Translations under genes and position numbers: made by a program
Origin: Acidobacteriaceae bacterium dw_441
Lineage (GTDB): Bacteria > Acidobacteriota > Terriglobia > Terriglobales > Acidobacteriaceae
DNA length: 64,000 bases
Direction: 5' to 3'
NCBI GenBank assembly: GCA_018449715.1
Contig: JAAVVA010000001.1
Location: 1,798,001-1,862,000 of the forward strand
Notes under the pieces: model-generated
Database searches by the model: none
Seen by the model: only the letters and a program-made list of their open reading frames with translations
Told to the model about the DNA's origin: nothing
Part shown: one piece after another, positions 46,060-64,000 of the stretch
How positions within the stretch are numbered: position 1 is the stretch's first letter
How the letters are laid out: each line of letters starts with the position of its first letter

Positions 46060-46073
46060 ATGAGACGTCTCAT
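46060..46073 (+). promoter_or_regulatory. palindromic operator ATGAGACGTCTCAT (site 1)
   Basis: A perfect 14-bp palindrome with a central CpG, the form of LacI/GalR-family operators. The same sequence occurs at 60152-60165 and, degenerate, at 50298-50311. A LacI-family gene lies at 50449. Binding of that protein is inferred. Confidence 0.75.
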
Positions 46074-46311
46074 CTATCGATCAAAAACTTCTGAATACTT
46101 CTGCTTCGGTTTCGAATTTCGAACATAACTCCGTGAGTTCTGAAGGAGCGAAGAGGAGTTTCAATCGCGCTGCAGGTATTCACGCAACATCACAAGGACG
46201 CATCTGCTCGATGACGAATGGCCCCACAACACATTGAAAACGACCGCAGACTCTACGACTAACAGATAACAACCAGGCTCTCACGAGCTTATGGTTCCTG
46301 GAGGCTTTCCC

Positions 46312-49300: not shown

Positions 49301-49620
49301 CCTATCTCAGCAACCGCTCCATTAACCGTTGGTTTGATGCAAGCGCCTTCGTCGATCCCGGCGGAACAGTTCAGGGAAATGTGAGACGCAATACACTACG
49401 TGGTCCTGGGACGGTGCAGTTCGATCTCTCCGCCATCAAGAGCTTTAACTTCAGAGACCGCCTCACTGCTCAGTTCCGTGCTGAAGCCTATAACGTGATC
49501 AATCACGGAATCTTCGCTCAACCAGCGGCCAACATATCGACCCCGAGTACCGTAGGAAAGATCTCTTCGACCTCTGGAGACAATCGCAGTATCCAGCTAG
49601 CGGTCAAAGTTATCTTTTAG
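46312..49620 (+). CDS. TonB-dependent receptor, Oar-like, with N-terminal carboxypeptidase-regulatory domain
   Basis: 1102 residues from ATG 46312, preceded by GGAGG at seven bases; ATG 46291 is less likely. An extended signal sequence ends near 'SAAYGQA'. Next is a CarboxypepD-regulatory Ig-like domain ('VGKVTDSTGATIAGATIHLISNATGAERTATSSESGDWSIPNLPPASYKVRIEKDGF'), then a plug ('GQVISQKQITDLPLNGRNVLQLATLAPG') and a large barrel ending in 'IQLAVKVIF' with a terminal Phe. Acidobacteria use this class for uptake of carbohydrates and other polymers. Expression is probably controlled by the LacI-type operator upstream; the locus suggests a sugar-containing substrate. Confidence 0.9.
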   Translation: MNLLMLQTRFVQRGRSAPHATISASQKSFARLAFVLLMGSLALLPLQLISSAAYGQASSSSDAVGKVTDSTGATIAGATIHLISNATGAERTATSSESGDWSIPNLPPASYKVRIEKDGFKTAEIPSLDVEIGKTANGSATLSIGEHTETVEISTLPAQLQTSEATVGQVISQKQITDLPLNGRNVLQLATLAPGVSPPQTGQTGNPGRFGTRSLFITIDGGRGSSTNYVLDGTYIRSVRFNNMSIQPNVDTIQEFNLLRNSFSTEYGQGQAVVSMVTKSGSNSFHGSAYEFARNSVFDARNYFATSITNPVKPAFSRHQYGGTLGFPIKKDKLFVFGGFEGLRTNRDTPVYGVYPTAEQLGTPDNQLAQVLNPTFPTPQTPNGAATILGQYNYSATPTTTDNYDQYTIRADQTLSPRNMLFERYVNFDSTQFLPSVQGGINNKLTGRNGVIGHTFLISPNIVNEARIGYNMYYNFELGVGYQPGTNFASQEGLNYVTSLTDPTQYGRANVTIVGFTNVFDNVTSQGGSENIISAGDSLSIVKGRHTLKFGFQYQNRRVILLADNNATGSFTFGPCTATACDDANKINPDTSTYYTALENYRRGYCTASCNGNFGTTRGHYRDNTYGAFISDVFQFGHGLTINAGLRWEYNSPFIEQNGLEGTLDPTTGKIKYSKVPEFIPTVFLPYVTTDSTYRPGIIEPRKKGFGPRLGLAYEPRSGTVFRAGGGIFFENINTNELQFTRYAAPLYFQQSLNNVFVQNMFPDPTLGSAGLPAPFSIRPSNALPYTLEWTASVQQDLGHGVILELAYTASATRKLWKRYDQNMDLLRPGYTAPGVSNTANVGVRPFPQFQHGILTSSNAATANFEGGSVKVEKRAKNDGLYFLGSYQWSKNLDNNSGEVEANDTAYSTDFSFDYSYARFDVRHRAVISGGYELPFGKNHAYLQHGVGNVLAGGWSLQPAVQLRSGYPFSPSRSGVTFGTYTPGRVNLAPGRTLASSYLSNRSINRWFDASAFVDPGGTVQGNVRRNTLRGPGTVQFDLSAIKSFNFRDRLTAQFRAEAYNVINHGIFAQPAANISTPSTVGKISSTSGDNRSIQLAVKVIF

Positions 49621-49629
49621 TTCCACAAC

Positions 49630-49672
49630 AAAACGAGGATGCCTGATAGTATTTGTCGGGCATCCTCGTTTT
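49630..49672. terminator. bidirectional terminator after the TonB receptor
   Basis: AAAACGAGGATGCC / GGCATCCTCGTTTT is a perfect 14-bp stem with a 15-base loop, between convergent genes. Confidence 0.88.
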
Positions 49673-49697
49673 ACTACTGCTTTCGTATAAAGAATAT

Positions 49698-50210: not shown

Positions 50211-50297
50211 GTATCGACCCTCCATAAACCTCCTTGCAGCTAAACTGCTTAGACTTCATATCTTAGCCTGTATTTTAGTCTCAATTCCATCCAAAAG

Positions 50298-50311
50298 ATG
50301 AGACGACTCAA
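50298..50311 (-). promoter_or_regulatory. degenerate copy of the palindromic operator (site 2)
   Basis: ATGAGACGACTCAA on the plus strand keeps 12 of 14 bases of the perfect palindrome; one half is intact. It sits 8 bases downstream of the -10 box of the cytochrome promoter, as at the other two sites. Confidence 0.6.
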
Positions 50312-50319
50312 TTCGACTA

Positions 50320-50349
50320 AATATAGAGATACCCTTCAAACACTGTCAA
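50320..50349 (-). promoter_or_regulatory. sigma-70 promoter of the cytochrome-HhH gene
   Basis: On the minus strand TTGACA (50349-50344), 18-base spacer and TATATT (50325-50320), a near-consensus promoter driving the gene that starts at 50210. Confidence 0.7.
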
Positions 50350-50448
50350 CAATTCTGCGATAGTTCATAGATGTCGAAGGCCCCACAACACTCATCTGAC
50401 GAACGTTAGGATGAAACCTCTCATTCACAATCATGTAGGATTTGTCAT

Positions 50449-51534
50449 ATGCCGCCCACCCAAAAGGAGCTAGCAAAGCTGGCAGGCGTCTCTGCCGGAA
50501 CTGTCTCGAACGTCATCAGTGGCTCGACGAACGTCAGTGAGCGCTCACGCCAGAAGGTACTTGAAGCCATTCGCGTCCTCAACTACCAGCCCAACCTGAT
50601 CGCACGCAGTCTGCGGACCAATCGCACCCGCACACTCGGAATCATCGTTCCTGATATTACGATTCCCTTCTTCCCGAAGATCATTCGCGGAGCAGAATCC
50701 GCGGCTCGAGAACATGGCTACTTCCTTATCGTGCTCGATTCCGAAGGCAGCTCCGATCGCGAATCGGACCTGATTGCACTCCTCCGCGCTCAGCGAGTAG
50801 AAGGTGTGCTTCTTGTTACCGCCGGTGGTCTTGAGGTGCTACCGGAGCGCCTCAAGACTGCGCAGACGCACTTTCCGGTTGTCTGCCTGGACCGCCTTCC
50901 CGCTGATCTCCATATAGACTCCGTGTGTGTTGATGACACAGGGGCAGCAGAGATGGCCACCTCTCACCTGATGAGTCTCGGGCACCGTAATATCGCCATC
51001 ATCACTGGCCCTCTGACGTTGCGTAACGAGCAGGAGCGCCTGCGAGGTTATCGCCAGGCGTTGCAGAGCGGTGGCATCCCAATACAGAAATCGCTGATAT
51101 GGGACGCATCGTTTGAACAGGACGATGTCTCGAAACGCTGCCAGAGCGGAATGCTTCGTCCCACCGGCAGGCCTTCCGCTCTCATGGCCACCAATGGCGT
51201 CACCGGACTCGCGGCTCTGCGCAGCCTCTACTCCATGGGGCTCAGCACCCCTAAAGATTTCTCTTTTGTCACGTTTGACGAAATAACCGCGGAAGACTTT
51301 TTTCGCCCCGGAATTACCTCTATTGTGCAGCCGACCTACGACATGGGATATAAAGCCGTCGAGGTGCTTCTGGACCGCATCGAACGCGGAGACGATGCTC
51401 CACGGAAGAAGGTTCGTCTTCCTGCAATGGTGAAGGTGCGGGAATCCTCTGGAAAACCTCTCGTCGAAGTCGCAGAAACAAAACCGCGTCGTTCGGTTTC
51501 CAAAACTTCGTCAGCCTCTCGTACACGTCGCTAA
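50449..51534 (+). CDS. LacI/GalR-family transcriptional regulator
   Basis: 361 residues. The DNA-binding domain is textbook: 'TQKELAKLAGVSAGTVSNVISGSTNVSERSRQKVLEAIRVLNYQPNLIARSLRTNRTRTLGIIVPD', including the hinge helix (NxIARSLRTNRT). A periplasmic-binding-protein-like effector domain follows ('GYFLIVLDSEGSSDRESDLIALLRAQRVEGVLLV', 'FSFVTFDEITAEDFFRPGITSIVQPTYDMGYKAVEVLLDRI'). The basic C-terminal tail is extra. It very likely binds the ATGAGACGTCTCAT palindromes in this locus and is released by a sugar or sugar derivative. It is convergent with the DUF4432 gene, only six bases apart. Confidence 0.95.
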   Translation: MPPTQKELAKLAGVSAGTVSNVISGSTNVSERSRQKVLEAIRVLNYQPNLIARSLRTNRTRTLGIIVPDITIPFFPKIIRGAESAAREHGYFLIVLDSEGSSDRESDLIALLRAQRVEGVLLVTAGGLEVLPERLKTAQTHFPVVCLDRLPADLHIDSVCVDDTGAAEMATSHLMSLGHRNIAIITGPLTLRNEQERLRGYRQALQSGGIPIQKSLIWDASFEQDDVSKRCQSGMLRPTGRPSALMATNGVTGLAALRSLYSMGLSTPKDFSFVTFDEITAEDFFRPGITSIVQPTYDMGYKAVEVLLDRIERGDDAPRKKVRLPAMVKVRESSGKPLVEVAETKPRRSVSKTSSASRTRR

Positions 51535-51540
51535 CAAACA

Positions 51541-52605
51541 TCACTGTGGCTTCTGAAGCTCTTCTATTGCCCTTTGAAGTTTGCTTACATCATCAAGCAC
51601 TTCAAATCTCAGGCGAAACCGCCTCTTTTCTCCCGGAGCCAGCATCTCCAACGTACCGCGCTCGCGTTCTGCCTTTCGTCCCAATGTCCTGCAGTTAGAC
51701 GGTTCGAGCCCCAGCACGAAGTGATTCTCCCCAGTCAGCTTCCACTGCGCAAACTGTGGCAAAGTTGATGCATCGTAACTCAACCTGATTCCAAATTGCG
51801 GTTGATCGCGATCATTTGCAAGGACAATTCCTACCCAACCATCTTTATCGGCAGCCATGTCATGAAAGTACACTCGCTCCTGCTGATCTCGTACAGCCGG
51901 CTCAAATTCTGACCACCGCATTACGCTCTCTTCCGAAAATCGGTCGCTTGGATGTACTTCCTTCGTCGGCGCATAGATTTGAGAAGATGCCGTCAGCAAT
52001 GGGTATCCGAAGTTGAAGTGATACAACATCATCAGTGGTGTCACACGCACGCCTTCATTCGACACCACATCTTCAATCTCAAGAGCTGATGACTTCAGCG
52101 AAGTTGTTATTCGCCGCTCCAGTAGCATATTGGGGCCAAAGACAGAGGACTCGCGCACGTTGCCCGCAATCTCAAAGAGGCAATCTGTGCCTTCCCATCG
52201 TTCCGACCATCGCAACTGCTCCGCTGGGGTCGTTGAAATTGGCCCATGCAGCCCAAGCTCCTCACCATCATCGATAGAAGGAGTCCCGGCCATTGTCAGT
52301 CCGCATGTCGTCAACAGGCCGCCAGAAAATGTCTTCAACCACTCCAACCCACGACTTGAATAGTAGGATGGATGAACCATTCCCTGCGGAGAGTGCCAGC
52401 AAAGAGAACTGCCGCGAAAGTTCGCCTCGTAGATATCCATCCCGCGATCCGGGACCACCCAAAACTCGAGGCCAGTTGCCGTTTTTACGCGCAACGCCGA
52501 TGTTCCCCGAGCACGCCCGTCTGCGTACAGGAAAGGAGTAATCCCTCCTGCCTGCGAAAGCCTTCCGATATGACGCCGAGTTTCATCCTTACAGTCAGCG
52601 CTCAT
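51541..52605 (-). CDS. DUF4432-family (aldose 1-epimerase-like) protein
   Basis: 354 residues without a signal peptide. The beta-sandwich mutarotase pattern is visible: 'LEFWVVPDRGMDIYEANFRGSSLCWHSPQGMVHPSYYSSRGLEWLKTFSGGLLTTCGLTMAG', 'LHGPISTTPAEQLRW' and 'MMLYHFNFGYPLL' with conserved His. The family is annotated by homology to galactose mutarotase; substrates are poorly defined. It is the last gene of the minus-strand carbohydrate operon, ten bases after the DUF1080 gene, and probably handles an anomeric sugar intermediate. Confidence 0.85.
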   Translation of the reverse strand: MSADCKDETRRHIGRLSQAGGITPFLYADGRARGTSALRVKTATGLEFWVVPDRGMDIYEANFRGSSLCWHSPQGMVHPSYYSSRGLEWLKTFSGGLLTTCGLTMAGTPSIDDGEELGLHGPISTTPAEQLRWSERWEGTDCLFEIAGNVRESSVFGPNMLLERRITTSLKSSALEIEDVVSNEGVRVTPLMMLYHFNFGYPLLTASSQIYAPTKEVHPSDRFSEESVMRWSEFEPAVRDQQERVYFHDMAADKDGWVGIVLANDRDQPQFGIRLSYDASTLPQFAQWKLTGENHFVLGLEPSNCRTLGRKAERERGTLEMLAPGEKRRFRLRFEVLDDVSKLQRAIEELQKPQ

Positions 52606-52615
52606 TCACGCCCTT

Positions 52616-53476
52616 TCAGGGAAGCTTCTTCAACCAGACATTGCGGTGCGAAATCTTCACGTCTCCACCACCCTCGATCTCAAACGCCAACACACCTAAA
52701 GCAGCATAGTACTTCGGGTCCGTATCGACTAGCATAGCCATCACATGACCATTCACAATATGTGTCAGAGTGTGCCCGTCAGCAATTACCTCAAACTGAT
52801 TCCACTCCCCCGGTTTGATGAATGCTTTCAATTCATCTGAGACTCCCACCGTGCCGAGAAGTCGAGGCTTCACATTCGGTTCCGTGGCTACAACCTGCCC
52901 TCGCCAGGCAATAATGCCGCGTGAACTGTCCTGCTCATACAGCTGACCTGTATAGCGATTGTTATAGTCAAAATCAGCCTGGTATCCCGTCAGGTTCCAC
53001 TTCGCATGTTTCTTGAGTAGCTCTTGATTCTTCCTGACCCGCTGCTTCTGCTGCTCACTCATCTGCGCCAACTGATCCGTTGGAATCTCACGAATCTGCG
53101 GAGCCACAAGCTTGCTGCGATATTGAACACCTCCGTTTGCACCAGTCCCCTCCAGCTTAATCTCAAACCGCAATCTGAAGTTTCCTGGTTCACCGCCGCG
53201 CCAGATGATGTTCGTTGTGCCTGAAGGATTCGCATCACTGGAGACACCGACTATCGCTCCATCTTCGACATGCCATACATCGGACGGACCATCCCATCCA
53301 TTCAGGGTTTTGCCATCGAAGATCTGTATCCAGCCATTGTGATCGTTGAAATCAATCGGCTCTGGCTGTACAAAGCGACTGCCTCCAGCAGGAGGGCGAG
53401 CGACTTGCTGAGCAAACACAGGCGCAGCAAACATCATTGCGACAAGCAGACCTTCAATACGCCTCGATTTCCTCAT
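52616..53476 (-). CDS. DUF1080 (3-keto-glycoside hydrolase-type) secreted protein
   Basis: 286 residues from ATG 53476, overlapping the stop of the upstream oxidoreductase gene by ATGA. A signal peptide ends near 'APVFAQ'. The domain '[32 protein letters not shown]', '[23 protein letters not shown]', '[17 protein letters not shown]' and '[21 protein letters not shown]' is a concanavalin-like sandwich typical of DUF1080. Some family members cleave 3-keto glycosides made by Gfo/Idh/MocA oxidoreductases. A charged helical insert of about 35 residues (near 135-165) interrupts the fold. Confidence 0.88.
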
Positions 53477-54615
53477 GCTCGAACATCCTCCCACTGCCTG
53501 TTCTTCGCGGAATCCAGAACAGCATCTGTCACATAATCAACAGCCAGGCCATCACGAAATGTCGGCGCGGCCTCTTCGCCCTTACCTAATGCCGTTAGAA
53601 AATCGGCGACCTGGTGGATGAAGGTGTGCTCATATCCAATCTGCAGACCTGGTACCCACCATTGCTTCATGTACGGATGATCGCTATCCGTAATATGAAT
53701 ACTCTTCCAACCACGCAGTCTTCCCTCATCTCTATGGTCAAAGAATTCCAGGCGGTGCAGATCGTGCAGGTCCCAGCGTGCGGAAGCGTACTCGCCATTG
53801 ATCTCGAGAGTGAATAAAGCCTTGTGTCCACGCGCATAGCGTGTCGCTTCAAACAACGCAGTTGATCCGTTCCTGAAGTGGCCTATAAACGAGCTAGCAT
53901 CGTCTATGGTTACGGGCTCCATCTTTCCTGTCAGGCTATGCTTACGTTCCTTGATGAAAGTCTCTATCATCGCGGAGACCTCGGCAATCGGCCCGTTCAG
54001 CCACAATGCCATATCGATGTTGTGTGCCAGCAGATCCCCCGTCACTCCACTGCCTGACACCGACGAGTCGAGACGCCACAGACCTTCACCTCCCTGCGGT
54101 AGATCCTGTGAGATCGTCCAATCTTGCAGGAACTGAGACCGATAGTGAAAGATACGTCCGAATCGTCCCTCATCCAGCAGGTTCTTCAGCAGCGCCAGTG
54201 CCGGAACGCGACGATAGTTGTACCACACCATGTTCGGCACCTTTGCAGCCTCAACTGCATCGAGCATCGCTTTCGCTTCTGCAGCGTTGCGCCCCAGTGG
54301 CTTCTCGCATAGCAGCATCTTCCCAGCCTTAGCGGCGGCAATTGCAATCTCTGCATGTGTGTCGTTGGGACTGGCAACATCAATCAGGTCGATATCTTTG
54401 CGCTCGATCAGAGTACGCCAATCCGACTCAATGGACTGATATCCCCAATTCTCCGCAAACCCTTTTGCACGCTCGGTGTTCCTCGCACATACCGCCTTCA
54501 AGACTGGTCTATATGGAAGATCGAAGAAGCGGGGAGCCTGCAGGAACGCATTCGAATGCGTTCTCCCCATGAATCCATAGCCTACAATTCCGATATTAAG
54601 ATCCTTCTTCGCCAT
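53473..54615 (-). CDS. Gfo/Idh/MocA-family oxidoreductase
   Basis: 380 residues. The NAD(P)-binding start is '[21 protein letters not shown]'; '[39 protein letters not shown]' carries the conserved EKP. The C-terminal dimer domain includes '[32 protein letters not shown]' with the Gfo-type Asp-x3-His. No Tat signal is seen, so it is cytoplasmic. Likely role: oxidising or reducing a sugar hydroxyl (often C3) or inositol-like substrate. It is translationally coupled to the DUF1080 gene. Confidence 0.93.
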
Positions 54616-54620
54616 AGCTT

Positions 54621-55682
54621 CTATCGATTCTCAATCCATCCATGAGCATCACGCACAGCAAGCAAAGTGCGCAGCACATCGTTCCAGGTATCAGGAGACA
54701 TCATCACTGCATTTGGAAACATGCAGCCATCCCAGCAAATGTGTTCGTAAGCACGAGTTGGCTTGCCATCTTCATTGCGCATCCAAAGTCCAGCGACCTT
54801 CACAATATCCATCTTGCCGTTGGGATCATTCGCAGGGCAGTGTCTTCCCGTCTTGTCGTGCGATCCACTTCCGTGCACAGTTCCGTCATTCTGCGCGACA
54901 TGAAAATCAATGGTCCAGGGGCGCAACGCGTCAGTCAGCTTACGCAGAGCATCCATCAGAACATCCTGCTGCGACCAATCGAAGTTCTCCGGCAATAGAC
55001 GACTTTCCGGAGAGTTATATCCCAACGTGTACAGAAGAGAATGCGCCATGTCTGCCTGGAAACCGACCGTCTGAGGTCGCCCGACCAATTCCAGCAGCTC
55101 AATCATGTGCGTCCAGCCATGCATGCCACCCCAGCAAATCTCCCCTTCTGCGGCCAGTCGTTCGCCGTAGTTTTCCGCAATCTTCGCTGCCTCGCAAAAG
55201 GTTGCTGCGATCTTCTTCGTGTTAGCTACCGGATCCTTCGCCCACTCTGACGTACTGGTAGCGGAGTCGATACGGATCACGCCATACTTACGAATCCCCA
55301 GTTCGCGCAAGGTCTTTCCCATAGCACAAGCCTTCTTCACCTGAGCCAGAAAGCTGCTGCGCTCCTCTTCACTTCCCATGGCGGAACCGCCACCCGTCGG
55401 AGGCCACACAGGAGCCACCAGAGAACCAACCAGCAGCCCGCGACTCGCGATCCCCTCCGCCAGATGAGCGAGATCATCTTTTGTTGAGTCGATATCAACG
55501 TGCGGCAGAGCGGCAAACAGATCGACACCATCGAACTTTTTGCCATCAACCTCTGCCGCAGCCGTCAGATCCAGCATCGTATCAAGATCGATTGGTGGCT
55601 CGGAATCAGGTCCCTTGCCTACAAGTCCAGGCCACATCGCATTGTGTATCGCTGGCTTCGTGTGCTTTATTTCGGTGCTCAC
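54621..55682 (-). CDS. sugar phosphate isomerase/epimerase-like TIM-barrel protein
   Basis: 353 residues of the xylose-isomerase-like (AP endonuclease family 2) fold. Metal-ligand candidates: '[46 protein letters not shown]' (Glu and Asp-x-x-His) and '[36 protein letters not shown]'. Members isomerise or epimerise sugars; some act as eliminases on 3-keto glycosides. No signal peptide. It lies five bases from the Gfo/Idh gene and six from the cupin gene, so all are in one operon. Confidence 0.88.
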
Positions 55683-55688
55683 AGATCA

Positions 55689-56906
55689 TCACCCCTTCAC
55701 AAGCGGCGCAGCATCGGGATTGCCCGGACCAAAGTGCTTCAGCATCACCAATGGGTCGGTCGAGCTGCGATTCTCGATCACGACACCCTTCTTCGCCGCA
55801 TCTGCTGTTACAAAGACCTCATCTTCGGTCGTCTCACCGAAACGAATCATCGAAGGCGTGGAGATCGTATGCTTACCCATCAGACCGTGCCCCTGCGTCA
55901 CAATCACACCATACGCCGCAGCATCTTTGATCGTCACCGTCTTCTTCGGAAGCACCGTCAACTCCTTCGCCGAATAATACGATGTGCCGTAGGTCACCCA
56001 CACCTCGCGATAACCGGACTGCGCCATCTCTTCCCCATCCTTCACCGGCTTCGGAAACGTCTTATTTGTGCTGGCAAACTCGGGATTCACATTCGCGTCC
56101 CAATCCAACATGCTAATCAGGTAATCGAGGTCTTTGCTGTGCTCAGGCAAGACATCTTTCGTCAGCAGGCTCCAATCAACGATGCGTCCGTCCACCTCGG
56201 ACTGAAACATGGCGAACACATCACTATTGACCTGCGGCTCGTATGTCACCAGCGAGCCTGGAGCGTGCAGAATTCCCGGATTGATCTGCCATCCCTCACC
56301 CGGCACTAGGCGATAGGCACGCGCATATTTCAGGATTCCATTGTCTCCTCGGTTCCACCGCTCAAGGCATCCACGAATGTCCGCCTTTGTCGTACCCGGC
56401 TCAAGCCCCATGTACGTGTGGGGAAAGTTATTTTGGATTTGGTTATATTGAGGCGGGAAGTAATAGGCCTCCGGTTTTCCCTTCTGTCCCACCAATTTTG
56501 CGAACTCTTCCGTCTGGTGCATGTGATGTGGAATCGGCCCCAGGTTGTCGAAGAACTTGCATAATAGGTTCCACCCGCCTTCGCGCTCCATCACATCAGA
56601 ACCCAGCAGAACATCGCCCGCTGCTTCCACTGCATCCTTCAACAAGAAGGACTCACCCTCTTTCGTCTTCACGTAGCTGAGTCCCTCATCTGGCAACGTC
56701 TCAGGACCATTCGATGCCTTCGTTGTTGACGAGAACCAACGCTCGTTAATGCCGCCGCGATGCCCCCCGAATGCATAAAGATCGTCTGGATGCAATTTCA
56801 ATCTTCTGCCCGGAATCATGAACGATCGAGGCACCCAGCATGGAGCCAGCCTGAGAATTCCGCCACCCATGTTCACAGCTTCTTCAATACTCGCTCGCTT
56901 GATCAT
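55689..56906 (-). CDS. cupin-type sugar isomerase-like protein
   Basis: 405 residues, predicted to fold as a bicupin. The first cupin contains 'LGPIPHHMHQTEEFAKLVGQKGKPEAYYFPPQ', with a HxHxxxE metal pattern as in mannose-6-phosphate isomerase-like proteins; 'VPGEGWQINPGILHAPGSLVTYEPQVNSDVFAMFQSEVDG' adds the distal His. A second beta-rich domain ('VTIKDAAAYGVIVTQGHGLMGKHTIST') follows. No signal peptide. Probably a metal-dependent isomerase acting on the sugar processed by this operon; substrate unknown. Confidence 0.75.
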   Translation of the reverse strand: MIKRASIEEAVNMGGGILRLAPCWVPRSFMIPGRRLKLHPDDLYAFGGHRGGINERWFSSTTKASNGPETLPDEGLSYVKTKEGESFLLKDAVEAAGDVLLGSDVMEREGGWNLLCKFFDNLGPIPHHMHQTEEFAKLVGQKGKPEAYYFPPQYNQIQNNFPHTYMGLEPGTTKADIRGCLERWNRGDNGILKYARAYRLVPGEGWQINPGILHAPGSLVTYEPQVNSDVFAMFQSEVDGRIVDWSLLTKDVLPEHSKDLDYLISMLDWDANVNPEFASTNKTFPKPVKDGEEMAQSGYREVWVTYGTSYYSAKELTVLPKKTVTIKDAAAYGVIVTQGHGLMGKHTISTPSMIRFGETTEDEVFVTADAAKKGVVIENRSSTDPLVMLKHFGPGNPDAAPLVKG

Positions 56907-56931
56907 TCTCTTCCTCTTGGACTACCTGGTT

Positions 56932-58479
56932 TCAGTGCTCGATACCAATTCCAAAGGAGTACAGCGTGTTGTCATGCGTCACGAAAAACACATGGCCATC
57001 CCCAACTGTAACTCCCGCCATCAGCGCATACGTTGGAACCGCTGTTCCGCTTGTGTAAAGTTCCTTGCCATCGGCCGCATCCAGCACCAGCAGCCTGGCT
57101 GGCGTAGAAGCGTTACCCTGCGCTAGCGCAAGTACAAGACCATTCGCGATCACGGGCGGAGCAGGATTCACCATTCCTTTAGACACCCACTGCGGCGTGA
57201 GAGCCATCTTTCCATTGTTCTCTTCCAGCTTGAATGCCACGATGCTTCCCTGCGCGGTCGCTCCATTACTCGTTGCGAATTTCGCTGAAGCATTTACCGC
57301 ACCATGAATCGAAGAAAAAATCCACGTCGTGTCAGACGTAGTATCCTGCCACACTGCAAGCGCATCAGGAGCTTCTCCCAAAGCTCCACCCACTGAGGGC
57401 GTCTCTGCCAACACCGTATGATGGTCCTCTCCACCCGGCGTCCCCCCATCAAGCAGAACAAAGCTGCCGCTCTTGCCCGGAGCGACAACCAGCCTCTTCC
57501 CCTTGTATGTAAACGACACGGGAGAGACATTACGCAGCGGCCCTTCAGCCTCGTACCACGCCTTCACCTTTGCATCAGGAGTCAACGCAACCAGACTGTT
57601 GGAGTGAACGCCCTCAGCGTTCGGGTTCGCACTTTTTCCCGTCACCACATAAGCCACATCGTCTCCCAGCGTCGGTCCGATTGCCGCCAGCAACGGAACA
57701 CTCTTCGAGTCATATGACGCCATCGGATAATCAGACGATGCCATATTCACCATGTAGAGCGCGTTCTTCCCACCAGCACACGCAGCGCTTGTCGTCGTGT
57801 ACATCACCGTACCGCCCAGAGCCAGCCCCTTCGAGAAACCAACCGCATGGGGCACAAACTTTACCGGCGATGCGAAGTCAACCCCGGTCGTAATTACCTG
57901 TTCATGCAGCGCGCCATCCGGTGTAAGTACGTAGATTCCCTTCAGTCCGAATCCACCACCACCAGCGGCCACTCCGATCCTTCTCTCATTTACCGCTAAG
58001 GGGCCTTGCGGCGGCGCAGGCTTCTGTCCTGGCGCCCTGCGAGCGCCAAAATTAATGACCAGCGGAGGCTCCATCGTCATGGCAAGATTCGATGCCCCAC
58101 ACGTGGAAGGCGCGGCATCATAATGTTTCTGCCACAAGATCTTCCCCAGCTCCGAGTCCACCGCATACACATTCTGCCTGTCCGACCAGATCACAAAATC
58201 CTTGAAGCCCTGCGAATTAATCAGCCTCGGAATAAGCAGCGGTTCGCTGTAAGAGCGAAAGCCACCCGCCTCTTTTCCGAGCTTCAGCTTCCAAAGAAAT
58301 TTGAACTCTCCGTGGAAGGATTCTTTAGTAATACTCTTCTCGGCCTTCTGCGCACCGGCGCGACCAGCGTCATTGCGATTCGTGCTCCAATACCCCAAAG
58401 TCTGAGCATGGACCTGCATCACACAGAGCACTGCACCTGCAATGCTGAGTCCGAGCGACACGGCTGACGATCTTTTCAT
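56932..58479 (-). CDS. secreted PQQ-like beta-propeller protein (paralogue A)
   Basis: 515 residues from ATG 58479 (AAGGAAAC upstream). A signal peptide ends near 'QVHAQ'. Repeats of the PQQ/quinoprotein type follow ('NVYAVDSELGKILWQKHYDA', 'IYVLTPDGALHEQVI', 'RLLVLDAADGKELYTSG', 'VFFVTHDNTLYSFGI'). The catalytic and metal residues of true quinoprotein dehydrogenases are not recognisable. It shares layout and end motifs with the next gene, so the two are paralogues. A Gly-rich loop (GVAAGGGGFGLKG) is notable. Possible role: periplasmic sugar binding or oxidation. Confidence 0.82.
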   Translation of the reverse strand: MKRSSAVSLGLSIAGAVLCVMQVHAQTLGYWSTNRNDAGRAGAQKAEKSITKESFHGEFKFLWKLKLGKEAGGFRSYSEPLLIPRLINSQGFKDFVIWSDRQNVYAVDSELGKILWQKHYDAAPSTCGASNLAMTMEPPLVINFGARRAPGQKPAPPQGPLAVNERRIGVAAGGGGFGLKGIYVLTPDGALHEQVITTGVDFASPVKFVPHAVGFSKGLALGGTVMYTTTSAACAGGKNALYMVNMASSDYPMASYDSKSVPLLAAIGPTLGDDVAYVVTGKSANPNAEGVHSNSLVALTPDAKVKAWYEAEGPLRNVSPVSFTYKGKRLVVAPGKSGSFVLLDGGTPGGEDHHTVLAETPSVGGALGEAPDALAVWQDTTSDTTWIFSSIHGAVNASAKFATSNGATAQGSIVAFKLEENNGKMALTPQWVSKGMVNPAPPVIANGLVLALAQGNASTPARLLVLDAADGKELYTSGTAVPTYALMAGVTVGDGHVFFVTHDNTLYSFGIGIEH

Positions 58480-58530
58480 GCTGACGTTTCCTTTTCCAGG
58501 CACAACAATCCACCCCAAGTCTCACAGCAC

Positions 58531-60165
58531 TTACTTGATTCCGAAACAGTAAAGTGTTCCATCGAATGTCCCGAAGATGACACGACCGCCAGCCACAGAT
58601 AGCCCCGCCTGATGCAGGAACGACACGATCTGATCTCCACTGCTATAGAGTTGTTTGCCCGTCTGTGCATCTAGCACAAACAGCTTCGCGGGCTTCGATC
58701 GTTCAATTCTCTGCTCTGCCGAGTACAGGCCACCTTCGATATCGTTGGTCTGGCCAGTAAACTCTCCACCTGCAAGGACGAAGACCAGCCCATTTGCTAT
58801 GACGGGAGGCTCAGCCGTCAGCATATCAATGGACTGCCACGCTGGCGAAAGCACCGTCTTTCCAGCCTTTTCCTCTACTTTGAAGGCAAGGATACCTCCA
58901 TTTGGAGTAGGGCCATAATTGATGGGGAACTTCATCGTCGTCAGCCCTCCGTTCGGAGCCAACACCCACTGCGTGCCAGCAGCATCCTTCCATGCAGCAA
59001 AGCTTCCCCACGTCCCTTCCGTCTGAAAGTTCACATTTGCATTTGCTAGAAGCTCTGACCGGAACAATGGCGTCTGATGATCCGCTCCTCCCAGCGACTT
59101 GCTGTCCAGCATGAAGAAGCGTCCTTCCTTCCCGCCGCCGACAAGCAGGTCGCGGCCTTTATACGGAAAGACCACTGGAGTCGTATTCAGATCAAGATCT
59201 CTCTGCGTAAGCCATTTATAGTTCGAAGGCGTGTAGTAATCCTTCAGCATCAATGTGTCATTCGAGAAGGTATAAGCCTGAAGGCTAGTCGAAAGCTGAC
59301 CAGTCTTCGCGTCATACGGATGGTCTCCCGATTCAAAGTAGATCGTTCCATCGCTGCCAACCGCAGGCCCTGCCGTTCCCCAGAGCCCGCCCTGCGGCGG
59401 CGAAGACACAGTGACCTTCTTCGTGACAGTGTTGTAGGCATACAAGGCGTTCGGAACTCCACCGCATCCCTGCCCAGTTATGGTAAACACAACACCCTTC
59501 ACCAGATTCAATCCGTATGGCTTGCCATAAACACCTGGCAGAATCTGCACCGGAGCTTGCGTCTCTTCCCCGGTAGCCGGATCGAGCAGGTGCAGATATC
59601 CATCCGTCGTCATCACGTACAGGACACGCTCCCCTTCACCTGCCGGGGTAATCACCGGAGTGGCGCTCAACGCATTCGTACAGATAAACCCACGGCCCTC
59701 ACCCTGCTCCTGCGGCTGATCCGAGACCCACTTGAGCTTCTTCTGCCACACCAGTTCTCCCGTGTCCGCATCGACGACATAGACGTCGTTCGAGCTACCG
59801 GCAAATATGGCGACGGTCTTAGTTCCGCCTTTCGCGTTGATGCCCGAAACGATCAGAGGCTCGCGAAACGACTGCATCCCCATCGTCTTGTTGTCGGTCT
59901 TCAGCTTCCAGAGTAGCTTCAGCCCCGCAACATTCTGGGGCGTGATCTTCGTTTCCTCACGCTGCCAGGCATCTCGTTGCGGGCTGTAACTGCTTGTAGT
60001 CCACTCTGGCTGTATGGCTTGCCCCCATGCGGGCATGATGCAGAGCATCGAAAGAACTAGGGCAGCACAGATCTCTGCCCCTCGAATAGAGTGCGAAGGA
60101 ACTGTCTTGCAGCTCCTGTAAGAGACTTCCGGGCGGTGGATCGTTCGAAATATGAGACGTCTCAT
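58531..60165 (-). CDS. secreted PQQ-like beta-propeller protein (paralogue B)
   Basis: About 544 residues if translation starts at ATG 60165; the start is uncertain because that ATG lies inside the palindromic operator, and TTG 60204 coincides with the -35 box. A hydrophobic signal ('ICAALVLSMLCIMPAWGQA') is present with a long basic lead. Propeller repeats: 'DVYVVDADTGELVWQKKLKW', 'VLYVMTTDGYLHLLDPATGEE', 'KLFVLDAQTGKQLYSSGDQIVSFLHQAGLSVAGGRVIFGTFDGTLYCFGI'. Catalytic quinoprotein residues are not evident. First gene after the LacI-controlled promoter. Confidence 0.8.
   Translation of the reverse strand: MRRLIFRTIHRPEVSYRSCKTVPSHSIRGAEICAALVLSMLCIMPAWGQAIQPEWTTSSYSPQRDAWQREETKITPQNVAGLKLLWKLKTDNKTMGMQSFREPLIVSGINAKGGTKTVAIFAGSSNDVYVVDADTGELVWQKKLKWVSDQPQEQGEGRGFICTNALSATPVITPAGEGERVLYVMTTDGYLHLLDPATGEETQAPVQILPGVYGKPYGLNLVKGVVFTITGQGCGGVPNALYAYNTVTKKVTVSSPPQGGLWGTAGPAVGSDGTIYFESGDHPYDAKTGQLSTSLQAYTFSNDTLMLKDYYTPSNYKWLTQRDLDLNTTPVVFPYKGRDLLVGGGKEGRFFMLDSKSLGGADHQTPLFRSELLANANVNFQTEGTWGSFAAWKDAAGTQWVLAPNGGLTTMKFPINYGPTPNGGILAFKVEEKAGKTVLSPAWQSIDMLTAEPPVIANGLVFVLAGGEFTGQTNDIEGGLYSAEQRIERSKPAKLFVLDAQTGKQLYSSGDQIVSFLHQAGLSVAGGRVIFGTFDGTLYCFGIK
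60152..60165 (-). promoter_or_regulatory. palindromic operator ATGAGACGTCTCAT (site 3)
   Basis: Identical to site 1 at all 14 positions. It starts 9 bases after the -10 box of the promoter at 60175-60204, covering the predicted transcription start. The outer flanks CGAAAT and ATTTCG extend the symmetry. Confidence 0.75.
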
Positions 60166-60174
60166 TTCGAGAGG

Positions 60175-60204
60175 ATAGTACCGACGACAAGCGAACCCTG
60201 TCAA
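60175..60204 (-). promoter_or_regulatory. sigma-70 promoter of the propeller-cupin-isomerase operon
   Basis: On the minus strand TTGACA (60204-60199), 18-base spacer and TACTAT (60180-60175). It gives the downstream eight genes their own start inside the larger minus-strand cluster. Confidence 0.7.
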
Positions 60205-60285
60205 GCATTCCTCCAGATTTTACTGATCTATCAAGCGCACCCAATCTTTACTGGTCCACCTTTACTCAAAGGTCATTCGCCACAC

Positions 60286-62175
60286 TCAATACTGTTGTGC
60301 TCCAGCATCCTGAACGCGTACTCGATAGACAGACGTGCGCGCCGTAACATAAAGCGTCTTCATATCATCGCCCCCAAAGGCAACATTCACAGGCGTCTCT
60401 GGAAACTCGATCCTCTTCAGTAGCTGTCCCCGTGGTGTATAGACCGCAACCCCTTTGCACGCGATGTAAAGGTTTCCGTTTGCAGCGACACGCAGACCAT
60501 CCGGCGTACCTTCGAGATTGCGAATCACGATGCGCTCATTTGATGCATTGCCATTTTTGTCGAGATCGTAAGCGCGAATGCTCTTTTCCTGAGAGTCCGC
60601 CACATAAAGGATCCGACCATCCTGCGTCAGTGCTACTCCATTAGGACGCTGCATCTTTGCGATCAGCGTTACCCTGCCCTGCGGGTCGACATGATACAAA
60701 CCATTGAATGAAAGCTCGCGCTCCTCAAGCACTGCAAGCGAAGCTGGATCAGAAAAATAGACCTGTCCATCGCGTCGCACGACTACGTCATTTGGGGAGT
60801 TGAGTCGTTTACCTTCATATTTCTCAGCGACCACAGTCTCGCTGCCATCAAGATTTGTTCGTACGATACGATGACCGTCGCGCTCTGCCGTGTAAAGCCG
60901 TCCCTGTACATCCATTGAATTGCCATTTCCCGCATGGGTGTAACGACGATAGACCTCTGGCTGGTTCAGTTTTGCGATCTTCATCGTGCGAGAGTTGTAA
61001 ATATCGCTGAAGAGAAGATAGCCTCCATCCTTCTTTACCCACACAGGTCCTTCCACAAAAGAAAAGCCCGTTCCAACACGCTCAACGCCTGATCCCGAAG
61101 CAACCGGAGGAGGTGGAGGTGGCTCAATCTCCAGCGCCAGACGCCAGGTCCAGGAGGTTCCGGGCTTGATCTTCACCAAACCAACCCCGGTATTCAATGA
61201 ATTTTGTATGCCGAACCACGGCTCCGGACAGAAATACCCAACGCTTGCTCCACCATATGCGTTGGTCCGAATCAGCGGCTCGGGCAATGTTGTGGTTGAT
61301 GTCTGCGTCAGCCGAAGCACCATTCCCTCAGGATCGATGATGCGCGAAAACGGTTGGCTCTTGTATCCAGCCAGCGGCAATGCAACACGCGCATCAAAGC
61401 TACCAAGTTCTTCCGGAATATAGAACGAACGTTGCTTCTGTTCTCCACTTAAAACCCCCACAGAATTACGCAGCATCTGCACTGTATTCTGCGTTTCAAA
61501 AAGCATTTTGGCGGGATCTGTAGCTGGAAGAAACGGCAGCTTGAAGCCGATGTGATTCCCGATGGAAAACGGCATCAGCTCGGTGTTGGAGTCATCTGAC
61601 TTCACGACATAATCAATCGTGAGATGCCCGTCGATCAACTCATAGGTCGCGTCGAGATGAAACGCATACGGATAGAACCTTCGTGTCGCATCCGATGCTT
61701 CCAGCTCTACCGTTACGCGAGCGCTGTGTTCGTCGGCAGTATGACTCACTGTCTTCCACGGAAGAGTACGTGCGAATCCATGACAGATCATAGGGTAGCT
61801 CTTTCCCATTGCGGTATAAGAACCCATTCCGCAACTTTCCTTCGGCACAGTATCCGTTGGGTATTGTGCTCCGACAGCAGGCCACAGTAACGGACCTTTC
61901 CCTTGAAAGCCAGTCTTATGCTCGTAATCTCGCGCATGATAAAGCAACTCCACCTGTTTTCCCTGAAAAGTAACTTTGAAGCTGCTTAGCTCACCCCCCT
62001 CTGTCGGAGCGACGGCAGCTTCTGCGCCAGCGACGTTATCGTGCAGGACAATTACCTTTGGAGAGTCCGGCCCAGATGCATTTTCCTCAATGACGGTGTA
62101 GCGCATCTGGGCGAACAACAGGACCGAAGAAGCTCCCATCCATGCAATCGCAAGAAGAGGCAAATGGATTCTCAC
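60286..62175 (-). CDS. fusion of aldose 1-epimerase-like and SMP-30/gluconolactonase-like domains, secreted
   Basis: 629 residues. A signal peptide ends at 'LLFAQ'. Residues about 25-355 are a galactose-mutarotase-like sandwich ('PTEGGELSSFKVTFQGKQVELLYHARD', 'GPLLWPAVGAQYP', 'MICHGFARTLPWKTVSH', 'MPFSIGNHIGFKLPF'). A Pro-only linker (six prolines near residue 360) joins an SMP-30 propeller: 'GFSFVEGPVWVKKDGGYLLFSDIYNSRTMKI', 'GRLYTAERDGHRIVRTNLDG', 'RLNSPNDVVVRRDGQVYFSDP', 'GVALTQDGRILYVADSQEKSIRAYD', 'GTPDGLRVAANGNLYIA'. The Glu, Asn and Asp metal ligands of the lactonase family are present. It would interconvert anomers and open the lactone produced by the coupled PQQ dehydrogenase. Confidence 0.88.
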   Translation of the reverse strand: MRIHLPLLAIAWMGASSVLLFAQMRYTVIEENASGPDSPKVIVLHDNVAGAEAAVAPTEGGELSSFKVTFQGKQVELLYHARDYEHKTGFQGKGPLLWPAVGAQYPTDTVPKESCGMGSYTAMGKSYPMICHGFARTLPWKTVSHTADEHSARVTVELEASDATRRFYPYAFHLDATYELIDGHLTIDYVVKSDDSNTELMPFSIGNHIGFKLPFLPATDPAKMLFETQNTVQMLRNSVGVLSGEQKQRSFYIPEELGSFDARVALPLAGYKSQPFSRIIDPEGMVLRLTQTSTTTLPEPLIRTNAYGGASVGYFCPEPWFGIQNSLNTGVGLVKIKPGTSWTWRLALEIEPPPPPPVASGSGVERVGTGFSFVEGPVWVKKDGGYLLFSDIYNSRTMKIAKLNQPEVYRRYTHAGNGNSMDVQGRLYTAERDGHRIVRTNLDGSETVVAEKYEGKRLNSPNDVVVRRDGQVYFSDPASLAVLEERELSFNGLYHVDPQGRVTLIAKMQRPNGVALTQDGRILYVADSQEKSIRAYDLDKNGNASNERIVIRNLEGTPDGLRVAANGNLYIACKGVAVYTPRGQLLKRIEFPETPVNVAFGGDDMKTLYVTARTSVYRVRVQDAGAQQY

Positions 62176-63776
62176 TTGGCAGCCCCCTTTTCATGATCGA
62201 GCAGAGCAAAGCTGAAAACTGTGGTGTTGGTGGCGATTGCGACATACTGCTTGCCGTCCACCATATATGTCATCGGTTGTGCATTGATGCCTTCCCCGGT
62301 GTTGAAATGCCAAAGAGTCTTGCCGGATTTTGCATCCAGAGCGACGAATTGACCATTCAATTCACCTGAGAAAATCAGGCCGGTTTTAGTCGAAAGCAGA
62401 CCACCGCCAAGCCCCATGTTGCCTACACGCTCCTGCTCCCAGACGAGCTTACCTGTAATCAGATCGAGCGCTCGCACATAAACCTTCCAGTCCGCGTTAT
62501 GCAGCAGAACATCTCCTCCGGCACGGTACTGAAAACCTCCCGGGCGGAAGGTCTCTGTGTTCTTCGTAGCTAGACCGCAGCCTTCCAGAGCAACCACATA
62601 AAAAAGATTCGTATCGCGGTTGTAAGCCGGAGACATCCAATTCGCTGCACCGATCGACGAAGGACATACCTTCGTTCCTGTCAGGCTCGGCTCAATTCCA
62701 GGCACGCGGATAGGACGACCTTCCGCGGTCAAACCGCTAGCCCAGTTAAGTTGCGTTACAAACGGTACTCCATGGAGAAATTTTCCCATTTCACGATCGA
62801 GCACATAGTAGAAACCGTTGCGATCCGCCTGCACCAGCAACTTACGCATCTTGCCTTCATACACAGCATCCACCAGCACCGGCACTTCGGAACCATCCCA
62901 ATCCATCATGTCGTGCGGAGTGAACTGAAAGTACCACTTCAACTTTCCGGTATCCAGATCAATCGCAACCATGCATTCGCTGTACAGGTTATCGCCCATA
63001 CGCACATCGCCATTAAAGTCAGGGGATGGATTTCCCAGTCCTAAATAGTAAAGATTCAATTCCGGATCGTAACTCCCGCTCATCCAGGTAGCAGCCCCTG
63101 CATGCTTCCATGAGTCACCAGCCCACGTCTCGTTGCCGGGTTCGCCTGGTTTAGGAATCGCATCCCAATGCCATAGCTTCTTTCCTGTATCCGCGTCGTA
63201 CGCCTCCAACCAACCATTCAATCCACGGTCTCCAGGAGCTACACCAACTATGACCTTCCCCTTTGCGATAAAGGGAGCAGGTGGTGCCGAATATCCTTCA
63301 GTCGTCTCCGCAATCTTTACCTCGTAGACCACGCTGCCAGTCGTCGCATTCAAGGCGATCAGGTAATCATCCGTGGTGAGATAGTAGACGCGGTCCTTAT
63401 AAACCGCGGCACCTCGCTGTGGCCCCTCGCGATCCTTTACCTTCACAAGCGGATGATGATGATCCCATATAAGTCGCCCGCTCCTGCCATCAATCGCATA
63501 GAGAGCATTCGGTTGCGTAAAGTACAACACGCCATTTACTGCAATAGGAACGGATTGCATCGGCGCGCCGCTATTCACATGAAAAGCCCATTGCGCGACG
63601 AGCGAGTGAATATTGGATGGCTTAATCTGATCCAGTTCACTGTTACGCTGGCTGTTGTAGCTTCCGTTATAAGTCAACCAGTCCTTACCGGGTGGCTGTA
63701 GAAGCTGTTGCTCTGTTACCTGCGCGAAAAGCGATGATGAAAGTATCAGCAGAAACGCAAGAGCCCTAATCCTCAT
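62172..63776 (-). CDS. PQQ-dependent alcohol/sugar dehydrogenase-like quinoprotein, secreted
   Basis: 534 residues with a signal peptide (ends 'SSSLFAQ') and an eight-bladed propeller. 'GETWAGDSWKHAGAATWMSGSYDPELNLYYLGLGNPSPDFNGD' and 'FQFTPHDMMDWDGSEVPVL' match the methanol/ethanol-dehydrogenase family; the catalytic base would be the first Asp of D-W-D. The metal-ligand Glu is replaced by Asp (GVAPGDRGLNG), and the adjacent-cysteine disulfide ring is absent. Its stop and start overlap both neighbours by ATGA, tying it to the cytochrome upstream and the mutarotase-lactonase fusion downstream. Confidence 0.88.
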   Translation of the reverse strand: MRIRALAFLLILSSSLFAQVTEQQLLQPPGKDWLTYNGSYNSQRNSELDQIKPSNIHSLVAQWAFHVNSGAPMQSVPIAVNGVLYFTQPNALYAIDGRSGRLIWDHHHPLVKVKDREGPQRGAAVYKDRVYYLTTDDYLIALNATTGSVVYEVKIAETTEGYSAPPAPFIAKGKVIVGVAPGDRGLNGWLEAYDADTGKKLWHWDAIPKPGEPGNETWAGDSWKHAGAATWMSGSYDPELNLYYLGLGNPSPDFNGDVRMGDNLYSECMVAIDLDTGKLKWYFQFTPHDMMDWDGSEVPVLVDAVYEGKMRKLLVQADRNGFYYVLDREMGKFLHGVPFVTQLNWASGLTAEGRPIRVPGIEPSLTGTKVCPSSIGAANWMSPAYNRDTNLFYVVALEGCGLATKNTETFRPGGFQYRAGGDVLLHNADWKVYVRALDLITGKLVWEQERVGNMGLGGGLLSTKTGLIFSGELNGQFVALDAKSGKTLWHFNTGEGINAQPMTYMVDGKQYVAIATNTTVFSFALLDHEKGAAK

Positions 63777-64000
63777 CGGCCCACCTCGCCGTCACCTTCG
63801 ACCTTTTTATGCAGATTGACAGTTGCCTGCTTCGCCAGCATTGCCAACAGGTCGTTGTACTCTTCCCGACTGAGTACCTTGTCGTAGTTATGAGGCATAA
63901 GTGAAATCTTCGACTCCTCTACTGATTTCAACTCCGCACGGTCGAGCAGATGCAGGTGATTCTGATTATCGAGAAGCTGGATCGAAAAATTATCCTGGTT
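63773..64000 (-). CDS. C-terminal end of a cytochrome c-type protein, truncated by the window
   Basis: The last 75 codons are visible: 'NQDNFSIQLLDNQNHLHLLDRAELKSVEESKISLMPHNYDKVLSREEYNDLLAMLAKQ' plus a polar tail. The 'SLMP' Met and final helix are the pattern of a putative haem-binding domain at the end of multi-domain cytochromes. The haem CxxCH would lie to the right of the window. It overlaps the dehydrogenase start by ATGA, so it probably is the electron acceptor of that enzyme. Confidence 0.65.
   Translation of the reverse strand, partial: NQDNFSIQLLDNQNHLHLLDRAELKSVEESKISLMPHNYDKVLSREEYNDLLAMLAKQATVNLHKKVEGDGEVGR

Follow-up and report, generated by a model that had tools for sequence, protein, structure and literature searches.

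Analysis of a 64,000-nucleotide stretch of the genome of the soil acidobacterium Acidobacteriaceae bacterium dw_441 (hereafter the window; positions 1798001 to 1862000 of contig C1 in a 4.92-Mb genome) suggests that an apparently continuous sugar-oxidation locus consists of two adjacent, separate units. The first, from 46060 to 60204, is a predicted LacI regulon built around a core of seven genes (51541 to 60204) that code for two pyrroloquinoline quinone (PQQ)-type propellers, a cupin, a TIM barrel, a Gfo/Idh/MocA oxidoreductase (Gfo), a DUF1080 protein and a DUF4432 protein. The second, from 60286 to 67965, is an oxidation arm that codes for a TonB-type receptor, a diheme cytochrome, a PQQ dehydrogenase and a mutarotase-lactonase fusion. 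Because of the placement of the operator and the results of neighborhood comparisons, we read arm and core as distinct, and consider this division, together with the regulon, highly probable. That the core serves keto-sugar catabolism has about even odds, and the combination of two units with a keto-sugar or glycoside pathway, our best explanation of the locus as a whole, has a probability of roughly 0.5.

The initial annotation had joined the core and the arm, apart from its receptor, into one catabolic system of 14 kb. Every gene that it named was recovered from the open reading frame list and the Pfam and NCBIfam searches, all on the minus strand, and the interval itself measures 12.5 kb. 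The overlapping or tight spacing that it described holds for most genes, with overlaps of 4 bp between the PQQ dehydrogenase and fusion genes and of 22 bp between the Gfo and DUF1080 genes and with gaps of 5 to 25 bp within the core, but it is interrupted by a wider gap of 81 bp (60205 to 60285) between arm and core. The downstream edge of this gap holds the core promoter and operator (60204 to 60152). The gene run continues past the window end through the diheme cytochrome to a TonB-type receptor gene at 64597 to 67965, and two genes outside the interval first annotated, coding for a small cytochrome and a second TonB-type receptor (Table 1), carry the same kind of promoter-operator arrangement as the core.

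A search upstream of the core for palindromes with a central CG yielded ATGAGACGTCTCAT, which has two perfect copies in the genome, at 46060 and 60152, against 0.018 expected under uniform base composition; a reversed control pattern has no perfect copy in the source genome. Six further sites with two mismatches occur genome-wide, two of them (50298 and 50411) in the intergenic region between lacI and the small cytochrome gene. The spacing relative to the promoter is strikingly regular: in all 14 loci with a site at the core, the window included, TTGACA ends 31 to 34 nucleotides upstream of the operator, and at four receptor or cytochrome sites it ends 32 to 37 nucleotides before it. The predicted TTG start of propeller557, the propeller gene at the core promoter, coincides with the -35 box, and its true start lies further in.

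The genes were mapped by tblastn (E 1e-8) onto 36 loci (L050 to L085) from named contigs and family genomes, a set that includes duplicates, since L056 and L071 denote one contig, and other loci from numbered genomes (G handles) may duplicate named ones. An operator with at most one mismatch is present in 10 of the 13 examined loci with a propeller promoter and in 4 of the 5 in which the core begins with the cupin gene. This count leaves out contigs ending before the promoter (L058, L070, L073, L074 and L081), loci with a cupin that lack TIM barrel and Gfo relatives (L060 and L067), planctomycete loci (L061 to L066 and L068) and paralogue loci (L082 to L085); no operator site was found in any of these. 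Among 150 genomes of the family, perfect copies of the palindrome are present in five, namely, the source genome, G034 and G102, where they accompany the core, and G049 and G105, and a perfect copy of the reversed control is present in one (G115). The copies in G049 and G105, genomes with no cupin match, were rejected as operators and ascribed to chance, as they are located within an open reading frame and have no TTGACA before them. One-mismatch operators stand at the core in G031, G095, G128 and G148.

Thus, at the level of sequence, the palindrome has the features of a LacI-family operator: a central CG, location at target promoters and retention among related loci. LacI relatives with 67 to 80% identity are linked to the core in eight loci, and we infer that the LacI protein binds this palindrome. 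The predicted regulon would add to the core the TonB-type receptor and the small cytochrome and, in relatives, a monosaccharide ATP-binding cassette (ABC) importer. Relatives of the receptor adjoin the core in L050 (86% identity) and L054 (53%), and a small cytochrome lies near the core in seven loci, with its CxxCH motif kept in all seven. In G034, a receptor relative on a separate contig (L137, contig C6; 57% identity over 473 residues) is preceded by the same promoter-operator arrangement, which suggests that the regulon acts in trans. A CUT2-type importer, consisting of an ATPase, a permease and a permease-binding protein fusion, is found beside lacI or the DUF4432 gene in L052, L053, L057, L069 and L077 and, in partial form, in L051, where the contig ends. 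The operator directly precedes the importer ATPase gene in L052, L053, L057 and L069.

The core also withstands comparison across genomes, which bears out the expectation that its genes co-occur elsewhere. The nearest named relatives of the cupin come from Edaphobacter and other Acidobacteria records, and Edaphobacter-like loci retain the order propeller557-propeller528-cupin-TIM barrel-Gfo-DUF1080-(DUF4432) wherever the contigs extend far enough to show it. Propeller matches above 600 bits occur in 9 of the 150 family genomes, and these nine all belong to the 18 genomes whose cupin match is below E 1e-140; in three of the 18 (G064, G112 and G116), cupins of 57 to 58% identity lie in another context. 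In planctomycetes, the cupin, TIM barrel and Gfo genes adjoin each other in three of seven loci (L061, L063 and L066), with identities of 55 to 58%, 57 to 65% and 65 to 70%, respectively, and the cupin and TIM barrel genes are together in three more, L064 (where the contig ends), L065 and L068. A DUF4432 gene (30 to 32% identity) is nearby in four of the seven (L061, L062, L063 and L066). The cytosolic cassette of cupin, TIM barrel, Gfo and mutarotase thus recurs in two phyla, and we know of no function ascribed to it. Separately, a protein of about 350 residues, which had no Pfam hit in the two cases tested, replaces DUF4432 beside the core in L070, L074, L076, L079, L080 and L081; judged by eye, it looks mutarotase-like, as if one such enzyme had been swapped for another. 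A cupin paralogue of 56 to 58% identity was observed in L082 to L084. In L082 and L084, its neighbors are a TIM barrel gene and a gene for a symporter-like protein, and the cupin-TIM barrel pair there seems to have been reused in another pathway.

The arm fails the same neighborhood comparison. The mutarotase-lactonase fusion, which combines Aldose_epim and SGL domains in one protein according to Pfam, is found in none of the 36 mapped loci (E 1e-8). Among the 150 family genomes (E 1e-60), it is full length in the source genome and otherwise matched in G137 over residues 5 to 201 only; among 396 genomes of the phylum (E 1e-80), it is again full length in the source genome and otherwise matched in G397 over residues 16 to 351 only, the two genome sets being overlapping and only the best few candidates per genome being scored. 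No operator site with up to two mismatches precedes the arm, and the core operator lies downstream of it, so the proposal that a periplasmic oxidation arm shares the LacI control of the core is not sustained.

A single integrated pathway would have the PQQ dehydrogenase and diheme cytochrome oxidize a glycoside or aldose, the mutarotase-lactonase take the lactone and the core continue in the cytosol, with the arm transcribed into the core. Consistent with this, arm and core share a strand, and the 81-bp gap has no listed terminator-like site, which leaves room for read-through. Moreover, L050 has, in the position that the arm takes here before the core operator, a nonorthologous pair of cytochrome and PQQ dehydrogenase genes (the latter at 36 to 37% identity), and L056 has a nonorthologous quinohemoprotein gene about 3 kb upstream; these (with L071, the same contig as L056) are the only PQQ dehydrogenases near the core within the flanks examined. 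This recurrence is suggestive, given that only about ten genes for related dehydrogenases occur in the 4.9 Mb of the source genome, and on this basis there may still be a functional link between PQQ oxidation and the core. Set against the single pathway are the position of the arm, upstream of the operator and with no copy of its own, the restriction of the full-length fusion to the source genome in both genome sets, and the situation in G034 (L069), which among the genomes searched is the member of the genus that has the core, and in which a MauG-like trio of genes (see below) occupies the place of the arm. We therefore consider an integrated pathway unlikely and favor two units.

Taken by itself, the arm reads as a self-contained system, with no operator, for the periplasmic oxidation of an aldose or alcohol to a lactone that is then opened. 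Its dehydrogenase belongs with the PQQ alcohol dehydrogenase propellers that have the active-site Asp: it matches the PF01011 propeller with 283 bits and aligns over its full length with PedH (347 bits), and D292 and D294 fall on the PedH DxD, which we take to be the catalytic-type Asp of quinoprotein dehydrogenases. In PQQ alcohol dehydrogenases, an adjacent Cys pair lies near PQQ; compared with PedH, this pair is absent from the arm dehydrogenase, and it was likewise not seen in the other seven rows of a multiple alignment. The enzyme scores below the cut-off of the acido-empty-quinoprotein group A model (TIGR04528; 542 versus 650 bits), and three paralogues in the genome (L011 to L013, on contigs C9, C4 and C1) exceed it. 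As PqqC, PqqD and PqqE pass their NCBIfam cut-offs in the source genome, PQQ can probably be made, and we rejected for this genome the notion of "empty" quinoproteins in an organism that makes no PQQ; the label "empty" may not fit species with both passing quinoproteins and PqqC, PqqD and PqqE. Divergent from the arm receptor is a gene for a 986-aa protein (L010:8020-10980) with no Pfam hit and a faint alpha-galacturonidase match (48 bits; cut-off, 1300). Beyond the arm, at 71005 to 77440, are genes for a GH106 alpha-L-rhamnosidase, a rhamnulokinase-like protein and a rhamnulose-1-phosphate aldolase/dehydrogenase, and the arm may belong with these rhamnose genes.

With regard to the chemistry of the core, the DUF1080 protein is a member of its family (PF06439, named 3-keto-disaccharide hydrolase in the Pfam used; 110 bits versus a cut-off of 26.8), which has 14 matches in the source genome; solved relatives are matched weakly, the best with 51 bits. 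By hydropathy, it has a secretion-type N terminus, and its real start is probably an internal ATG. No LacABC-type gene was detected among the genes scanned near the locus, the part of the genome to which that search was confined. The Gfo protein (Pfam, 90 bits), which has no hydrophobic N terminus, has as its best solved matches, both over the full length, 4h3v (367 bits; uncharacterized) and 6a3f (285 bits; listed as a putative dehydrogenase), the latter of which we take to be levoglucosan dehydrogenase. The TIM barrel falls just short of its Pfam cut-off (30.0 versus 31.1) and has no PDB sequence match at E 0.1, and the DUF4432 protein (Pfam, 347 bits) matches PDB entry 3ty1, "Hypothetical aldose 1-epimerase," with 111 bits. 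The keto-sugar or glycoside type of catabolism invoked by the initial annotation stands as the best reading of the DUF1080 protein, levoglucosan-dehydrogenase-like Gfo and TIM barrel, with the oxidation arm removed from it.

An alternative modeled on LgdA-LgdB1-LgdB2-LgdC would have the core degrade levoglucosan or another anhydrosugar, with C3 oxidation of an imported sugar by a cytosolic Gfo, elimination and hydration by the TIM barrel and completion by the cupin or Gfo. Among named NCBIfam models, levoglucosan dehydrogenase is indeed the nearest to the Gfo (NF052479, LgdA), with a score of 328 bits that is far below the cut-off of 650, and the Bacillus smithii Lgd cluster includes genes for a LacI protein and a sugar ABC transporter (PMC7676230), as do some relatives here. 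The core has one TIM barrel and one Gfo in place of the two of each in Lgd, its TIM barrel matches no solved structure at the threshold given above, and two propellers and a DUF1080 protein with hydrophobic N termini would be superfluous to such a route, which we accordingly regard as quite improbable.

The cupin has no Pfam or NCBIfam match at E 0.001 and a weak profile match to phosphomannose isomerase (E 0.00075). Its structure model superimposes on phosphomannose isomerase 2wfp with a Z score of 15.7 and a root mean square deviation of 3.7 over 271 aligned residues, which points to a type I phosphomannose isomerase fold, and the invariant H128, H130, E146 and H214 align to isomerase residues that are presumably the metal ligands. 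Two proteins were modeled, both with moderate predicted local distance difference test (pLDDT) scores (propeller557, 74; cupin, 68), and a family that is not listed in a fold comparison is not thereby excluded. Such an isomerase could also be placed in a pathway for a deoxy or otherwise unusual free aldose such as rhamnose, in which the TIM barrel and cupin would be aldose-ketose isomerases, DUF4432 the mutarotase, and the DUF1080 protein and propellers glycan-binding or glycan-cleaving surface proteins. In line with this, RhaS is the nearest match to the binding part of the importer in each of three scanned loci (221 to 229 bits, below the cut-off of 342), the rhamnose genes noted above lie 3 to 10 kb beyond the arm, and the cupin paralogue in L084 is near an L-rhamnose mutarotase. 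Those rhamnose genes have no operator nearby and accompany the cupin in just one other mapped locus, L067; there, the end of the rhaD relative is 2.4 kb from the cupin with another gene between them, and we did not use this as a link to L-rhamnose. The joint retention of Gfo and DUF1080 further points to oxidation-first chemistry, and we judge the free-aldose alternative very doubtful, retaining a keto-sugar or glycoside pathway as the preferred reading.

A pathway with DUF1080 in the periplasm needs a periplasmic oxidant, for which propeller557 is the candidate. The fold of its model is that of a PQQ/BamB-type propeller; the best matches, at a template modeling score of about 0.5, include eight-bladed designs. 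D336 and D338 are invariant in 13 rows, and in a profile comparison with the quinoprotein dehydrogenases of the genome (98.5%, 279 columns) they fall on the DxD of the latter in what is a remote, partial alignment. In known quinoprotein enzymes, DxD comprises the catalytic Asp and a lanthanide-binding Asp. The DxD pair is absent from propeller528, which matches no solved structure by sequence at E 0.1. That propeller557 is the oxidase of the pathway is, on this evidence, an unlikely assignment.

We also considered whether a MauG-like gene is responsible for the maturation of a protein cofactor within the propeller. This diheme gene, whose MauG- and MbnH-like matches are both below the model cut-offs, forms a trio with genes for a carboxypeptidase-regulatory-like protein and a YVTN/YncE-like propeller (e.g., L053:3345-6444), and in ten loci (L051 to L055, L057, L069, L076, L077 and L078) the trio stands at the operator in divergent orientation to the core; in L075, it is on the contig of the core, further away. 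Matches at E 1e-60 occur in 25 of the 150 family genomes, and the close form (at least 486 bits) occurs in 10, all within the 18 cupin genomes (hypergeometric probability of 4e-11, with shared ancestry ignored). Against a maturation role, G114, which is listed as 100% complete, has the propeller and core with no match at E 1e-60, and the MauG-like gene of the source genome is on another contig (C7).

Several observations weigh against our reading, in addition to the possible read-through and the dehydrogenases upstream of the core in L050 and L056. With up to two mismatches allowed, the palindrome has 8 sites genome-wide and the control 12, i.e., there is no enrichment; hence, the assignment of the sites at 50298 and 50411 draws on their position, on the promoter before 50298 and, in relatives, on sites close to the lacI or importer genes. 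No operator with up to two mismatches was found in L056, L059, L072 and L075, and a perfect operator is present in just 3 of the 18 cupin genomes. The core itself is patchy, being confined by its cupin to those 18 of 150 family genomes, and the propellers are not beside it in L059 and L077 to L080. The Gfo score is well under the levoglucosan dehydrogenase cut-off. Finally, the candidate for the periplasmic oxidant is a remote relative of the quinoproteins with no whole-length sequence match in PDB.

On the basis of family membership and of the pathways described for DUF1080 proteins, levoglucosan and O-glycoside elimination, the following scheme appears the most likely one for the core. In the absence of the sugar, the repressor, bound just downstream of the -10 box, would block the receptor, small-cytochrome and core promoters. 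When the sugar is present, a glycoside or oligosaccharide would pass through the receptor to the periplasm, where it might be oxidized, presumably at C3, by propeller557, with electrons passing to the small cytochrome, and where the DUF1080 protein would cleave the resulting 3-keto-glycoside. The released (keto-)monosaccharide would then enter the cytosol, in some relatives via the CUT2-type ABC importer that this operator also precedes, and there the Gfo, TIM barrel, phosphomannose-isomerase-like cupin and DUF4432 mutarotase might convert it to a common hexose.

This arrangement is partly reminiscent of several known systems. The Caulobacter LacABC-DUF1080 and Bacteroides BT2157 groups likewise have a secretion-type DUF1080 protein, an oxidoreductase and isomerase-like genes in one operon, and PMC9007349 proposes periplasmic oxidation and DUF1080 cleavage followed by the action of two sugar epimerases and a reductase. 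In contrast, the locus described here shows, in place of a LacABC-type dehydrogenase, a pair of PQQ-type propellers together with the small cytochrome and adds the phosphomannose-isomerase-like cupin, DUF4432 and a proposed LacI operator. With the Lgd pathway (PMC7676230), it shares an LgdA-type Gfo, a TIM barrel, a LacI gene and, in some relatives, a sugar ABC importer, and it differs in its single Gfo and TIM barrel, its periplasmic proteins and its cupin. The Agrobacterium O-glycoside beta-eliminase operon (GlycDH, AtOGE, AtHYD and Gfo), which carries out C3 oxidation, bond cleavage and return to glucose (PMC10628242), also combines Gfo with TIM-barrel-like proteins; here, DUF1080 is present, and the TIM barrel matches no PDB chain at the threshold given above, the AtOGE structure 8BVK being perhaps outside the PDB copy searched. 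Relative to the PQQ alcohol dehydrogenases (PedH, XoxF and type I/II alcohol dehydrogenases), the arm enzyme is alike over its length, with DxD kept and the Cys pair missing, and the core propellers are remote relatives with no whole-length match, of which propeller557 keeps DxD. The cupin resembles type I phosphomannose isomerase in model fold and in the residues at metal-ligand places, at 12% identity and with no phosphate-sugar context.

Table 1. Features of the LacI regulon and adjacent oxidation arm (window coordinates; compartments assigned from N-terminal hydropathy alone)
Feature	Position	Strand	Remarks
Putative LacI operator, perfect	46060..46073	+	Behind TTGACA / TAGGAT, upstream of TonB-type receptor
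TonB-type outer-membrane receptor	46291..49620	+	Named by eye from open reading frame; predicted regulon member
Small single-CxxCH cytochrome fused to ComEA-like helix-hairpin-helix	49698..50225	-	Hydrophobic N terminus; predicted regulon member
Operator-like site, 2 mismatches	50298..50311	-	Small-cytochrome promoter; TTGACA ends 32 nucleotides before site
Operator-like site, 2 mismatches	50411..50424	+	Just upstream of lacI
LacI-family repressor	50449..51534	+	Nearest RbsR/CytR/PurR models, each below cut-off
DUF4432, mutarotase-like	51541..52605	-	No hydrophobic N terminus; read as cytosolic
DUF1080 / 3-keto-disaccharide hydrolase family	52616..53494	-	Hydrophobic N terminus; read as periplasmic
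Gfo/Idh/MocA oxidoreductase, levoglucosan-dehydrogenase-like	53473..54615	-	Read as cytosolic
Xylose-isomerase-like TIM barrel	54621..55682	-	Just below Pfam cut-off; read as cytosolic
Cupin	55689..56906	-	Type I phosphomannose isomerase fold in model
PQQ-type propeller (propeller528)	56932..58518	-	No DxD pair; hydrophobic N terminus; paralogue of propeller557
PQQ-type propeller (propeller557)	58531..60204	-	Eight-bladed type in model; DxD D336/D338; hydrophobic N terminus
Putative LacI operator of core operon, perfect	60152..60165	-
Core promoter	60175..60204	-	TTGACA-18-TACTAT
Mutarotase-lactonase fusion (Aldose_epim + SGL)	60286..62175	-	Hydrophobic N terminus; last gene of arm
Arm quinoprotein dehydrogenase	62172..63776	-	DxD D292/D294 present; adjacent Cys pair absent
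Diheme c-type cytochrome, 3' end	63773..64000 (gene to 64597)	-	Both CxxCH motifs beyond window

Within the Creative Commons-licensed literature in PubMed Central, judged mostly from listings, we recognized no paper that describes this combination of genes. More speculatively, and with low probability, the DxD propeller could be a new quinoprotein glycoside 3-dehydrogenase that passes electrons to the small cytochrome and acts with a secreted DUF1080 protein in a new periplasmic route to 3-keto-glycosides, and the cupin, of phosphomannose-isomerase fold, a new isomerase of unphosphorylated keto-sugars in a cytosolic cassette common to Acidobacteriota and Planctomycetota. What had appeared to be one pathway becomes two units and a predicted regulon of one repressor, one operator and about ten genes. 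The operon offers a concrete candidate for the oxidant of DUF1080, namely, a quinoprotein-like propeller with a small cytochrome, and the function of any one member of the cytosolic cassette, if solved, would help in annotating the others across two phyla.

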